NCBI RefSeq assembly: GCF_001499735.1
Contig: NZ_LN848257.1
Location: 1,806,155-1,856,042 of the forward strand
DNA: 49,888 bases
Reading direction: 5' to 3'
From: Thiocapsa sp. KS1
GTDB taxonomy: Bacteria; Pseudomonadota; Gammaproteobacteria; Chromatiales; Chromatiaceae
Of the stretch, positions 42,947 to 49,331 are shown piece by piece. Numbering within the stretch: the first letter of the stretch is position 1; each line of letters opens with the position of its first letter. Below the pieces are notes generated by a model that was not told where the DNA came from, made no database searches, and was given only the letters and a program-made list of their open reading frames with translations. The translations under genes and the position numbers were made by a program.

Positions 42947-43822
42947 TCAGCCGCGCAGGCGCGCTTGGTAGTTGGGGATCAGATGAGCATGGATGCCTCG
43001 GCGCACGAGCGTCCAGAGCTCGTCCGTCAGGCTTGCCGTAAGCATGCCCTCCACCGCCGTGCGCCCGAGCTCCCCGAGCGCGTGGGTGAATGCCCTCTGC
43101 GTCGGGCCTTGAAGCCTGACCTCGTTGAGACAATGGGCATAGGCGTTCGCCACCAGGCTGACCGTCGGCAGGAGCGGGACCGGGTCTTCGATATCGACAT
43201 AGCGAAAGATCCGGTCGGGAAACGCCTGCTCGAAGGCTTTGGCCGCGACGGCGTTGCCGATCATCGGCGCGCCGAAGGTAACGACCTCGTGCACCCCGAT
43301 GAAGGCGCGCTGAAAACGCCAGGCCGCAAGCAACGCAAGTGCACCGCCGAGACTGTGTCCGGTCACCCAGAGCGGTCGCTCCGACGCGTCCATCGCCTCC
43401 TGGACGGCCTGTAGGAGCGGCGTCCAGATCTCGTCCAACGCCTGCATGAAGCCGCGATGGAATCGGGCCCCCACGCCCGCGGCGGCAAAATCGGTTCCGA
43501 TGCGTCCCTCGGGGACGACCAACAGGTTGTTTGCGTTGGTCAGCAGCCAGTCCTTGACCCCGTCGAGGCTCGTCGGTGATTGCGAGCCGCGAAAGGCGAC
43601 GACCAGCGCACCGGGGTCGCTCGCCACATAGACCTGCGTGTTGTCGACGCCGATGAGGCGCGCATCCACACCCAGCTCGGCCCGAAAGCCGGCCGCACCT
43701 TCGGGCTTGTCCAAATAGGCCAGCTCGCACGCCTTGGCCAGAAATCGGACATTGGGCAGATACCGCGGAACCGACGCGTCGAGTGTCATGGTCTGTTTAA
43801 GGTGATGTCCGAAAAATTCCAT
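42947..43822 (-). CDS. Class 3 lipase-like alpha/beta hydrolase
   Basis: This 291-residue protein has the lipase class 3 signature VTGHSLGGALALL with nucleophile Ser157. VVAFRGSQSP lies near residue 90 (oxyanion region), and VTFGAPMIGN and DPVPLLP follow, with the acid and a histidine (HCLNEV) downstream. There is no signal peptide, so it may act inside the cell on lipids or esters. ATG 43822 (MEFFGHHL) abuts the 76-bp repeat; ATG 43790 is an alternative. Neither has a good ribosome-binding site. The stop codon TGA lies in a copy of the recurring motif (minus strand CTGAATCGCGTT). Confidence 0.8.
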   Translation of the reverse strand: MEFFGHHLKQTMTLDASVPRYLPNVRFLAKACELAYLDKPEGAAGFRAELGVDARLIGVDNTQVYVASDPGALVVAFRGSQSPTSLDGVKDWLLTNANNLLVVPEGRIGTDFAAAGVGARFHRGFMQALDEIWTPLLQAVQEAMDASERPLWVTGHSLGGALALLAAWRFQRAFIGVHEVVTFGAPMIGNAVAAKAFEQAFPDRIFRYVDIEDPVPLLPTVSLVANAYAHCLNEVRLQGPTQRAFTHALGELGRTAVEGMLTASLTDELWTLVRRGIHAHLIPNYQARLRG

Positions 43823-43826
43823 CCCC

Positions 43827-43902
43827 GTAGGTTGTGCTGACGAGAGGAAGCACAACATGCGCCGACGGTTGGTTGTGCCTCGCACGGCTCGGCACAACCT
43901 AC
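43827..43902. repeat. 76-bp double-hairpin dispersed repeat, copy 2
   Basis: This is the inverted counterpart of 12671-12746 with two differences (at the centre, near CAACATGCGCC). It fills most of the 101 bases between the LRR protein and the lipase start, so transcription or translation of the lipase must cross it. Confidence 0.8.
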
Positions 43903-43923
43903 ACCTGAATGACTGGCGCGGCC

Positions 43924-44583
43924 TCAGCGTAAGGCCCGGCGCCCGCGCTTGGCCTTGCGCCATTCGGAGAGGGTCTCGGCCGAGACGGATGTGCCGCGCA
44001 GATCCAGCTCGCGCAGAGCCGGATGAGCCATCAGGAACGCGCGAAAACCGGCGTCGGTAATGCCGGTGTTTGCCAGACGCAGCCGCTCCAAACGCGTCGA
44101 TTCGGCAAGCCGCGCGAGCCCTGCGTCCGTCACGCCGCTCTCGTTCAGATCCAGCTCGCGAAGACGATCCATCCCGGCGAGCAGCCGCAAGGTCTCGTCC
44201 GTCACATCCGGGTTGGCCATCTGCAGCACGACCACATCCGCCGCCCCGTCCAACACCCGATAGTCGTGCCGGTCCCAGCCCGTCAGGGTGATATGGCGCT
44301 CGCCGTCGACCAGCACATCGCGCGGGCCGAGATCGACGGGCAACAAGCGGTTGACGATCGGCGGACAGGCGGCGAGCAGCAATCCAGCCAATCCCAGGAC
44401 AAGCGGACCGCGCGCGGCGTGAAATCGGCCGACCACGAAGAGCAGCCCAGCCGGCGGAAAGAGCGTGACCGCCACACCCCAAGCACGGCTGCGCCGCCAA
44501 GCGACCACGGCAAACCAGATCCAACTGACCGCCAGCAGGCCGAAGCCTGTCGAGGTCGCCATGAAGAGGTGGCTTTCGTTCAT
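43924..44583 (-). CDS. Membrane-anchored leucine-rich-repeat protein
   Basis: This 219-residue protein has three membrane helices in the first 85 residues (about 8-28, 36-52, 60-82). A short linker and about four leucine-rich repeats of the RNI/SDS22-like kind follow: LRELDLNESGVTDAGLARL, LERLRLANTGITDAGFRAF, LRELDLRGTSVSAETL. The repeats would form a small interaction surface. Which side of the membrane they face is not clear. The start ATG overlaps the stop of a small upstream frame by four bases. Its position in a minus-strand row of genes suggests co-transcription with its neighbours. Function unknown. Confidence 0.75.
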   Translation of the reverse strand: MNESHLFMATSTGFGLLAVSWIWFAVVAWRRSRAWGVAVTLFPPAGLLFVVGRFHAARGPLVLGLAGLLLAACPPIVNRLLPVDLGPRDVLVDGERHITLTGWDRHDYRVLDGAADVVVLQMANPDVTDETLRLLAGMDRLRELDLNESGVTDAGLARLAESTRLERLRLANTGITDAGFRAFLMAHPALRELDLRGTSVSAETLSEWRKAKRGRRALR

Positions 44584-44690
44584 TTCGGGTCACCCTGCAT
44601 TTCGGACTCGCGCTTGGCCGCATCGAGGCTCCGATGCAGAGCGCTTTCCACACCCCAGGCACCGCAGCAGTCGTGCGGATCTTCCAGCAC
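44580..44690 (-). CDS. Possible small coupled protein upstream of the LRR gene
   Basis: This is a short frame ending in an ATGA overlap with the LRR gene, open from at least 44786. The best internal start I find is GTG 44690, giving 36 residues with a DPHDCCGAWG motif and a charged helical tail. The ATGA overlap and the conserved-looking Cys-Cys pair argue for a real product. The lack of a clear ribosome-binding site argues against. I do not recognise it. Confidence 0.35.
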   Translation of the reverse strand: MLEDPHDCCGAWGVESALHRSLDAAKRESEMQGDPK

Positions 44691-46079: not shown

Positions 46080-46721
46080 TCAGGGAAAACCGAGCAGCTT
46101 GTGGGTCTGGATGCTCAGACGCCAGAGCGGCCTGGTTTGGCAGTAGGCGATCGCTTGGCGGGTATGCGCTTGAAGGTTCGGACCGTCCATGGGCTGAAGG
46201 AAGAAGTGATCGAAGGCGAGGTGCTCGAGATCGTCCGGCGAGAGGCCGGGCTGGGGGAAGACAAGCTTGAGCTCCTGGCCCGTACGCTGCACCAGCTCGG
46301 CCCCGGCCTTTGGGCTGACGCAAACCCAGTCGACGCCCTCCGGCACCGGAAGTGTCCCGTTGGTCTCGACGGCGATCTCGAAACCCCGCGCATGCAGCGC
46401 AGCGATCAGGTGGACATCAAGCTGAAGCAGCGGCTCGCCGCCGGTCAGGACGACGAAGGGCCGGCCGTGCGCGCCCGCCGGCTCGGGCCAGACCGATCGG
46501 ATGCGTTCCGCAAGCGCGTCCGGGTCTCGGAACAGCCCGCCGCCCTCGCCGTCGGTCCCGCGAAAATCCGTATCGCAGAATCGACAGATCGCCGTCGCGC
46601 GATCCTGCTCGCGCCCGGACCAGAGGTTGCAGCCGGCGAATCGGCAGAAGACCGCCGCCCGACCGGCCTGCGCGCCCTCGCCCTGCAAGGTGTAGAAGAT
46701 CTCTTTGACGCTGTAGCTCAT
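46080..46721 (-). CDS. queE: 7-carboxy-7-deazaguanine synthase
   Basis: QueE is a radical SAM enzyme that contracts 6-carboxy-5,6,7,8-tetrahydropterin to 7-carboxy-7-deazaguanine on the queuosine pathway. The 213-residue product has EIFYTLQGEGAQAGR near residue 7 and the modified cluster motif C-x14-C-x2-C (Cys31, Cys46, Cys49), as in many proteobacterial QueE proteins. Further motifs are VVLTGGEPLLQ, ETNGTL, CVSPKAG and LQPMDGPN. ATG 46721 overlaps the queD stop by four bases. It is the last gene of queC-queD-queE; queF and tgt are not in the window. Confidence 0.94.
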   Translation of the reverse strand: MSYSVKEIFYTLQGEGAQAGRAAVFCRFAGCNLWSGREQDRATAICRFCDTDFRGTDGEGGGLFRDPDALAERIRSVWPEPAGAHGRPFVVLTGGEPLLQLDVHLIAALHARGFEIAVETNGTLPVPEGVDWVCVSPKAGAELVQRTGQELKLVFPQPGLSPDDLEHLAFDHFFLQPMDGPNLQAHTRQAIAYCQTRPLWRLSIQTHKLLGFP

Positions 46722-47812
46722 AGCGGCAGCGCGGGGCCGAGCTCGCCCCAACCGAGCACGGCTCCGCAGCCCGGGGTCTCGTGCAGATCGATGCGGTCCA
46801 TCTGCGGGAGCGCGGCGGCGACCTCCTCGCGGATCCAGAGAAGCAGATTGCCCGGATCGGCTTGGCGCAGGCGCGGGAGCGCGTCGAGCCGATGGTGATC
46901 AAGTGCGTCGTAAACCGGCTTGAAGCGTCTCTTCACATCCCCGTAATCGATCGTCCAGCCGAGCACCTCATCCAGCGGGGCGGTCAGATGCAGACGCAGG
47001 AGATAGCTGTGACCATGCAGGCGGCGGCGCCGATCGCCTTCCGGCGCTTGGACGAGCTGCAGGGCGCTCTCGAAGCGCTGCTCCTTCCAGATTCGATAAT
47101 GCACACCGTCGTAGTGACAACCGGCGGTGGCCGTCTCGTAAACGGTGACACAGGAGAGCTGCGGAAAAACCGGTCGCAGTCGCTCCCAAATCCAACGCGC
47201 CAGCATCTCGCTGGTCGGGTTCTCCAGACCCGGGATGTCGTTCATGCAGGCGTGATCAAGCTCGGCGTACAGGGGTGCCCAGATCTCCGCGAGCCGATCG
47301 AAGTCGACGCCCATCTCGATTCCGCCAAGGTCCTGATTGGCGTGCAGGATCACCTCGAACCCATGCCCGTGCATCCGCCCGCACTGGTGACCCACGGGCA
47401 CATTCGGCAGGCGGTGGGCCGCCTCGAAACGAAAGCGTCGCCAGACATGGGCCTGCTCGAGGCCGTCGAGGTCGACTCCCTGATCGCGGGTGCTTTGGAT
47501 GCCGAGCGAAACGACCCCCGGCACGCCGAGTTGCGCGCGGACCCAGCGGGCGAGATTCTCGTCGGTCGGGATCGGCAGGTGCGTGTTCAGGTCGCTGTAA
47601 TCGAGCGGCGCAATGCAATCAGCGAGCGTCCGCGCGAGCGCTTCCGTCTCCCCGCCCGGAAACGGCGCCCAATCGACCGGCAGCTCCGCACGCACCTTGG
47701 CGACGAAACCGTGCCCGTGCAAACGGCGCGAACGGTGCCCCGCAGGCAGGATGGAGACACGCCGCGCGGCCTCGAAGGGGACGGCGGCGACATGATAAAG
47801 ATGTTCACTCAT
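46718..47812 (-). CDS. queD: Three-domain QueD fusion (6-carboxy-tetrahydropterin synthase)
   Basis: QueD normally is a ~120-residue enzyme turning dihydroneopterin triphosphate into 6-carboxy-tetrahydropterin. This 364-residue protein carries three tandem copies (about 1-118, 122-240, 242-364). The middle copy has the full set: FEAAHRL (zinc His133), HQCGRMHGH (Cys144, His148, His150), LDH (His187) and VYET (Glu226). Copy 1 has lost the first zinc histidine (Arg17), the cysteine (Ser28), the LDH histidine (Tyr72) and the glutamate. Copy 3 keeps HGH, LDH and Glu345 but lacks the first histidine and the cysteine. ATG 47812 overlaps queC by four bases. One active domain plus two scaffold or regulatory ones is the likely arrangement. 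Confidence 0.9.
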
Positions 47813-48571: not shown

Positions 48572-48946
48572 TCAGTTCCGATCGGTCGTCGGCTGGATGA
48601 GCGAGCGGATCCGCGCCAAAGCCGTGTCGCCGACATCCGAGAACTCGATCCCCAGCAGCCAGCGCTCTTCGGCGGTGCTCGGCGAGACCCAGACCACCGA
48701 GCCGACGGCCTGGATCCCCTCCGGGATCTCGGGCGCCTCCATTTCGACGAGCAGCCGAGAGCGCACGGCGAAAAGACGATCGGCCCACACCTGGAGACCG
48801 CCCTCGCTGATGTTGCGACCGAGCACCTGGTGCATCCCCGGGATGTTGTCCACCGCCTCGGAGCCCAACTGCATCAGGCGGGCATGGCACTCCCAGTGCA
48901 CGCGCTCGTAGCCCCGTCGATCCGCATCCGTCTCGCTGACCGCCAT
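48572..48946 (-). CDS. PilZ-domain cyclic-di-GMP receptor
   Basis: This 124-residue single-domain PilZ protein binds c-di-GMP through RxxxR (RGYER, residues 11-15) and the NxSxGG-like [10 protein letters not shown] near residue 48. The C-terminal barrel ([22 protein letters not shown]) is typical. GAGGTACTT just before ATG 48946 is a suitable ribosome-binding site. It precedes queC by 61 bp and could be co-transcribed with the queuosine genes, but there is no functional reason to link them. It is the only c-di-GMP receptor seen here beside two c-di-GMP enzymes. Confidence 0.87.
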
Positions 48947-49331
48947 AAGTACCTCAAGATCGATTGATTCATCGAAACGCCGGAAGGCCCTACCCTCGAC
49001 CCGATCATCCGGACGTCGGTCGGCCTTGCCGACCGCGGGGCGTCTAAACAGAGTAGCGCGGTAAGAATAGCGCTCGCCTCGGAAGCTGTCGACCGAGCTT
49101 GGAGCGGATCGCCCGGAGGCCGATCGCGGCGCAAGCCGATTCAAATCCTCAGGGACGAAAAACGGGGGTACGACAGATGCAGCGATGCCGAGGACGAGCG
49201 GAAGGCATTGGCGTCGCCATACTCAACGGCGCGGGACCGTTGAGTATGGTGCGATCCAAGGACGCGATGCCCGGGATCGCCTTCGATTTCGATCCGCGAA
49301 TGGACGAATCGAGGGGTCTTGCAGGGTCCGA
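48947..49331. other. Intergenic region between puc and the PilZ gene
   Basis: The 385 bases lie downstream of pucA on the same strand and hold a 13-bp hairpin (49217-49249, annotated separately). No gene is supported. The PilZ promoter should lie between about 48950 and 49200, but no clear box is visible. Confidence 0.5.
49217..49249 (-). terminator. Hairpin downstream of pucA
   Basis: CCATACTCAACGG (49217-49229) pairs perfectly with CCGTTGAGTATGG (49237-49249) across a 7-base loop. It starts 82 bases after the pucA stop. There is no T-run on the minus strand beyond it. It could end the puc transcript or protect it from 3' decay, as known for the puf and puc mRNAs of purple bacteria. Confidence 0.6.

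Follow-up and report, generated by a model that had tools for sequence, protein, structure and literature searches.

A three-domain QueD in Thiocapsa sp. KS1 and its proposed composite active site

A gene in a 49,888-nucleotide stretch of Thiocapsa sp. KS1 DNA (hereafter the window) encodes three tandem QueD domains in one chain, which raises the question of which domains contribute to catalysis. The initial annotation, made from the letters of the window alone, placed this three-copy fusion correctly at 46718..47812, on what we find to be the minus strand. It described a queC-queD-queE operon with two ATGA overlaps, and both could be located: one between queC and the triple queD at 47812-47809, the other between the triple queD and queE at 46721-46718. 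A single open reading frame (ORF), running from 47812 to 46718, encodes 364 amino acids plus a stop codon. PF01242, the PTPS family, is found in three stretches of the protein (whole-protein E 4.7e-57) and is the only Pfam family matched. The QueD equivalog model TIGR03367 of NCBIfam also matches in three stretches, with 146.5 bits against a cut-off of 89.25, and the broader model TIGR00039 falls just below its cut-off (119.8, cut-off 125.5). QueD usually has one T-fold domain per chain, and with three PF01242 stretches the protein is therefore classed as a variant rather than a plain member. Judged by sequence and context it is a QueD, and it departs from single-domain QueD by its architecture.

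Burgisser, in a 1995 paper, reportedly (by its title) described an intersubunit catalytic triad in rat PTPS. Enzymes of the family are dimers of trimers in which three monomers surround the cavity that holds each zinc site, according to the available part of PMC7546909. As general background, the triad of PTPS combines a Cys from one subunit with an Asp-His pair from another. We propose, with a probability of about 0.82, that the protein encoded here is a 6-carboxy-5,6,7,8-tetrahydropterin synthase (QueD) of the queuosine pathway in the form of a covalent pseudo-trimer, with one composite active site drawn from domains 2 and 3. Half of the triad most likely comes from the third domain, because the Asp-His dyad of that domain is intact in 135 of 135 homologues, compared to 33 of 135 for the dyad of domain 2.

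Retention of active-site residues

In the Thiocapsa sp. KS1 protein, alignment with E. coli QueD equates the domain 2 zinc histidines H133, H148 and H150 with positions 16, 31 and 33, C144 with 27, E226 with 110 and the dyad D186-H187 with 70 and 71. The middle domain was annotated as having every zinc and catalytic residue, and in this sequence all are present. The QueD (PTPS-I) signature CxxxHGH, as given in the part of PMC5041015 available to us, occurs in domain 2 as CGRMHGH (144-150) and is missing from domains 1 and 3. Domain 1 has R17 at zinc ligand 1 and S28 at the Cys position, and retains H32-G33-H34, D71 and PT(D)E; the description of this domain as having lost nearly all its residues is thus slightly too strong. 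Domain 3 has L251 and R262 at the equivalent two positions and does keep the HGH, the LDH (D305-H306) and the Glu (E345) ascribed to it.

The residues preceding the three HGH motifs are RRL, GRM and RRL, so that the PTPS-III signature ExxHGH is absent. This bears on whether the protein could be a folate enzyme of the PTPS-III type, or a dual-function enzyme, rather than QueD. PMC5041015, in the part available to us, calls the function of a further type, PTPS-V, unclear, and it describes dual-function members of the PTPS family. The latter speak for such a reading, but a CxxxHGH motif lacking the ExxHGH glutamate, the clustering with queC and queE, and the presence of folB elsewhere in the Thiocapsa sp. 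KS1 genome make this reading very improbable. We rejected a folate enzyme on the motif and on the separate folB.

Conservation was assessed in 135 distinct triple-domain sequences, many of them closely related. A first alignment held 105 triples, from the 109 whole triples in four genome samples with G104, G075, G108 and G143 left out, together with 26 single-domain QueD; 78 triples from named genomes were then added and duplicates dropped. The 26 single-domain QueD have the highest scores among those with loci available, and are thus biased towards close relatives, weaker types (E about 1e-8 to 1e-14) being left out. The column map was guided by the domains of 12 triples, and the PTSE columns of domain 3 are 318-321.

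In domain 2, H133, C144, H148, H150, P199-T200-S201-E202 and E226 are each conserved in 135/135 sequences. Its dyad is relaxed: D186 is found in 51, H187 in 73 and both together in 33, and residue 186 is His in 79 and Asp in 51 (together 130/135). Domain 3 has lost zinc ligand 1 and the Cys in every sequence and has kept D305 and H306 in every sequence. Domain 1 lacks zinc ligand 1 in 135/135 and the Cys in 124/135; its dyad is intact in 2/135, with the dyad His lost in 132/135. The second and third zinc histidines persist in both outer domains (H32 133/135 and H34 134/135 in domain 1; H266 130/135 and H268 135/135 in domain 3), and D84 is present in all 135 triples. Strictly invariant positions number 3, 18 and 13 in domains 1, 2 and 3. 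We looked for homologues with three intact active sites and found none: in none of the 135 sequences is the set of zinc histidines complete in domain 1 or domain 3, and none has more than one complete zinc site. The full QueD residue set is nevertheless present across domains, with the three zinc histidines and the Glu in domain 2 and the Asp-His dyad in domain 3 (and also in domain 2 in the 33). C189, which adjoins the relaxed middle dyad, is invariant in the triples and is Tyr in 25 of the 26 single-domain QueD.

The division extends beyond the dyad. Six residues fixed in single-domain QueD (G49, W50, D53, F61, D69 and H70 in L099 numbering) are each kept by domain 3 in 104 or 105 of the 105 triples of the first alignment, whereas domain 2 has G49 and W50 in none, F61 in 2, D53 in 78, D69 in 33 and H70 in 60. 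For the zinc-1, Cys and PTSE columns of the same 105 triples the split is reversed, with domain 2 rather than domain 3 keeping the residues. All 26 single-domain QueD retain the Asp-His dyad.

These counts bear on the choice between the composite site and a middle domain that is a self-sufficient QueD forming its own trimers, with the outer domains as passive decoration. Domain 2 has every residue in Thiocapsa sp. KS1 and resembles single QueD more than the other two domains do, with 50 to 54% identity to E. coli QueD chains and the nearest position on the domain tree. Its dyad is nonetheless broken in 102/135 sequences, and on a tree reduced to 107 rows by thinning at 90% identity (dyad columns excluded) the state of the middle dyad requires at least 13 changes and residue 186 at least 20, while the third-domain dyad is intact in 107/107 rows. 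Purifying selection acts on all three domains, and the structure model described below is confident over the whole chain. A self-sufficient middle domain is therefore improbable, and the annotated picture of one live middle domain beside a third domain with leftover residues finds no support in the dyad counts.

Proposed composite site

An AlphaFold2 model of the whole chain is confident (predicted TM score 0.89) and contains three tandem T-folds. Its domain 2 superposes on E. coli QueD at 1.1 Å over 119 residues, and adjacent domain pairs match uricase and GTP cyclohydrolase IB, after exclusion of several uricase rows with a root-mean-square deviation (rmsd) above 12 Å.

In the composite-site proposal, the protein would derive from three protomers of one QueD ring that became joined as three tandem T-folds, and the resulting chain most likely forms a closed pseudo-trimer ring. 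With a triad spanning neighbouring subunits of the ancestral QueD, each protomer would have equipped its own site with zinc, Cys, PTSE and Glu and lent its Asp-His dyad to the site of a neighbour. After triplication the zinc/Cys/PTSE/Glu half would have stayed with domain 2 and the Asp-His half, with GW..D and F297, with domain 3; domain 1, in which neither half is complete, would act as scaffold. One of the three sites per ring would thus remain live: site 2, comprising the zinc, Cys, PTSE and Glu of domain 2 and the Asp-His of domain 3. Site 1 (domain 1 with the dyad of domain 2) and site 3 (domain 3 with the dyad of domain 1) would have decayed on both sides. D305-H306 would reach C144 from within the same chain rather than from a partner chain, two chains would form a head-to-head pseudo-hexamer, and the enzyme would carry out the 6-carboxytetrahydropterin reaction. 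That the altered domains complete the oligomer, as had been suggested, is plausible from the pattern of residues.

Several observations weigh against this proposal. The neighbour rule, by which site i takes the dyad of domain i+1, is itself read from conservation. The opposite rule is disfavoured, because site 2 would then take the dyad of domain 1, with its lost His, and the invariance of D305-H306 would go unexplained. The middle dyad is intact in Thiocapsa sp. KS1 and the other sequences among the 33, where domain 2 could therefore in principle serve itself. The HGH motif is nearly invariant in domains 1 and 3 (130 to 135 of 135 per His), which is more than a mere scaffold would need. The two-domain structural matches are loose (rmsd 4.5-6.2), and the model is weak at residues 161-170 and 281-290 (means 57 and 55, with 284-286 below 50), the latter block containing the conserved GW.

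The retained histidines raise the question of whether domain 1, domain 3 or both serve a further role in addition to the composite site, involving another pterin, a metal or regulation. H32/H34, H266/H268, D84 and C189 are conserved although the canonical sites around them are broken. Zinc ligand 1 is lost from both outer domains in every sequence, however, the Cys is lost from domain 3 in all and from domain 1 in nearly all, and the operon partners queC and queE point to nothing beyond queuosine. We consider a second function unlikely, and the idea that the altered domains bind a different pterin has no direct support. A more specific possibility, also unlikely, is that the decayed first site has been remade into one with a metal-binding or regulatory role where domains 1 and 2 meet, formed by H32, H34, C189 and the His or Asp at 186, in which case the chain would hold one catalytic zinc and one structural or sensing metal. 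This candidate site is suggested because C189 is invariant where single QueD has Tyr, residue 186 is almost always His or Asp, and H32 and H34 are almost always kept.

Operon, distribution and origin

Gene order was recorded by strand and order, rather than adjacency, in flanks of about 1.5 to 3.5 kb. At 77/135 loci queC, the triple gene and queE lie on one strand in that order, and at 123/135 at least one of queC and queE is on the same strand, which gives the genomic link expected of QueD. Around the 26 single-domain QueD (1.5-kb flanks), queE is found near one and queC near none.

Median ratios of nonsynonymous to synonymous substitution (dN/dS) are 0.14, 0.10 and 0.07 for domains 1, 2 and 3 (28 pairs from 8 same-genus genes). 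All three domains are under purifying selection, and therefore none is decaying freely.

A domain tree was built from 22 triples of our choosing, with few columns and three long-branched d1 rows. The d1 and d2 rows each fall on one side of a branch (100/100), and 21 of the 22 d3 rows group weakly (84/77), with L062_d3 apart, so that d3 requires two changes. The single QueD group also requires two changes, and d2 is nearest to it. This fits a single ancient triplication after which labour was divided among the copies. The clustering of each domain type with its own kind also speaks against a frame error or misassembly joining separate genes. Broken copies do exist elsewhere (in G147 and on a 3,580-base contig of Thiorhodococcus minor), but here and throughout the 135 distinct sequences aligned the gene is a single open frame. 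We looked for such an error, rejected it on the single conserved frame, and regard its probability as negligible.

The genome samples drawn at family, order, class and phylum level overlap, and the Thiocapsa sp. KS1 genome is counted in each. A survey of Chromatiaceae, the family sample, finds the whole triple in 60/146 genomes; the order sample has it in 80/210 (79 as one match, plus G137, with an insert within one ORF), the class sample in 19/369 and the phylum sample in 14/398. Together these amount to 109 genomes, Thiocapsa sp. KS1 included, and the nearest relative, from the same genus (G071), is 95% identical over the full length. One same-genus draft of the order sample (G167, 91% complete) has no triple. 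When the domain-3 alignment was used to scan 84,980 species genomes, 382 pattern matches resulted, 379 of them encoding relatives. The 80 of these 379 confirmed stretches that were examined comprise 78 full-length triples, one broken gene (L143) and one truncated at the end of its contig (L193); among them are Thiocapsa, Thiocystis, Allochromatium, Marichromatium, Chromatium, Thiothrix, Methylotetracoccus, Methylolobus and Plasticicumulans. Triple-domain QueD thus occurs in purple sulfur bacteria and some relatives, and with 379 confirmed stretches among the 84,980 genomes it is not rare. One scan of viral contigs, which did not extend to a separate phage collection, returned 7 relatives, none a triple, and none of 186 matching plasmid records had 80% of the query in one place.

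Among the matches listed for genomes with an intact triple, the only other strong PTPS match is a broken second copy in G122, further ones having E 2e-9 (G164) or weaker. Certain distant single-domain types reach E-values no stronger than 2e-9, and such genomes may therefore hold a second, divergent QueD.

The coordinates of the features are collected in Table 1.

Table 1. Features of the triple queD locus, in window coordinates
Feature	Position	Strand	Basis or residues
Triple-domain QueD gene	46718..47812	-	ORF, Pfam and NCBIfam
Domain 1, residues 1-120	47453..47812	-	R17 as zinc ligand 1, no catalytic Cys, Y72 for dyad His; H32-G33-H34 and PTDE kept
Domain 2, residues 121-236	47105..47452	-	zinc H133/H148/H150, C144, PTSE 199-202, E226
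Domain 3, residues 237-364	46721..47104	-	zinc ligand 1 and Cys gone; G285-W286, D289, F297, D305-H306 kept
D305-H306, dyad proposed to be lent to domain 2	46895..46900	-	135/135 homologues
D186-H187, domain 2's own dyad	47252..47257	-	intact here; only 33/135 homologues
C189	47246..47248	-	135/135 triples; Tyr in 25/26 single-domain QueD
queC, 233 amino acids	47809..48510	-	Pfam/NCBIfam, synteny
queE, 213 amino acids, TIGR04508	46080..46721	-	Pfam/NCBIfam, synteny

By eye, a PilZ-like ORF lies just upstream of queC at 48572-49144 (minus strand), and a lipase-like stretch with GHSLGG lies downstream within 42947-44662 (minus strand). Two further PTPS-family loci occur in the Thiocapsa sp. KS1 genome, and by eye neither fits the QueD motif: one (L002, C1:1377165-1377545) has HGA for HGH and no Cys motif, near a glycosyltransferase-like ORF, and the other (L004, C1:3856141-3856578) has an ExxHGH motif, near short-chain dehydrogenase-like ORFs. 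The assembly measures 10.4 Mb in 43 contigs, labelled with 1.13% contamination, and ten other same-genus genomes measure 3.3-6.1 Mb. Elsewhere, one triple (L105, G137:C3) carries an insert of about 60 residues between domains 1 and 2, its matches stopping at ORF residue 131 and restarting at 191. Triple genes broken over several frames, present as an additional copy or as the only one, are seen in L143 (the Thiorhodococcus minor contig, G122:C90) and L120/L121 (G147); T. minor also has an intact triple on another contig.

Relation to known T-fold enzymes

Uricase and GTP cyclohydrolase IB have two T-folds per chain; their chemistry is different, and the present protein has three. Also among the closest known systems is QueD/PTPS-I (E. 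coli; PDB 4ntk, 4ntm and 3qn0), which shares with the triple protein the fold of domain 2, the zinc, Cys and Glu residues, TIGR03367 and the queC/queE neighbours. Its subunits are identical, whereas here one chain carries three unequal domains and the residue set is split over domains 2 and 3. Our literature searches, in open-licence papers, found no publication on a QueD triplication, and in the part of a 2026 QueC-family paper (PMC13329287) available to a search for QueD and fusion, the triple QueD is not mentioned.

The triple QueD appears to be a natural example in which the subunits of a symmetric ring enzyme were joined in one chain and its composite active site was then shared out among the copies. 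If this is true, the protein family itself reveals which half-site each subunit lends its neighbour. The triple QueD also allows the intersubunit triad of PTPS-family enzymes to be tested directly by genetics. It carries a warning for annotation as well, as the residue-completeness of one domain can point to the wrong dyad.

Bimodular QueF (V. cholerae; 3rj4 and 3bp1) would provide a parallel within the queuosine pathway. In that enzyme, active-site residues lie apart in two tandem T-folds and meet at an interdomain site, as the available part of PMC5372742 describes. The likeness is one of principle and fold only, namely active-site residues split over tandem T-folds. QueF has two T-folds and nitrile reductase chemistry; the present protein has three, no Pfam family but PTPS and the residues of a PTPS-type zinc enzyme, and does not have the two tandem QueF-type T-folds that define bimodular QueF.
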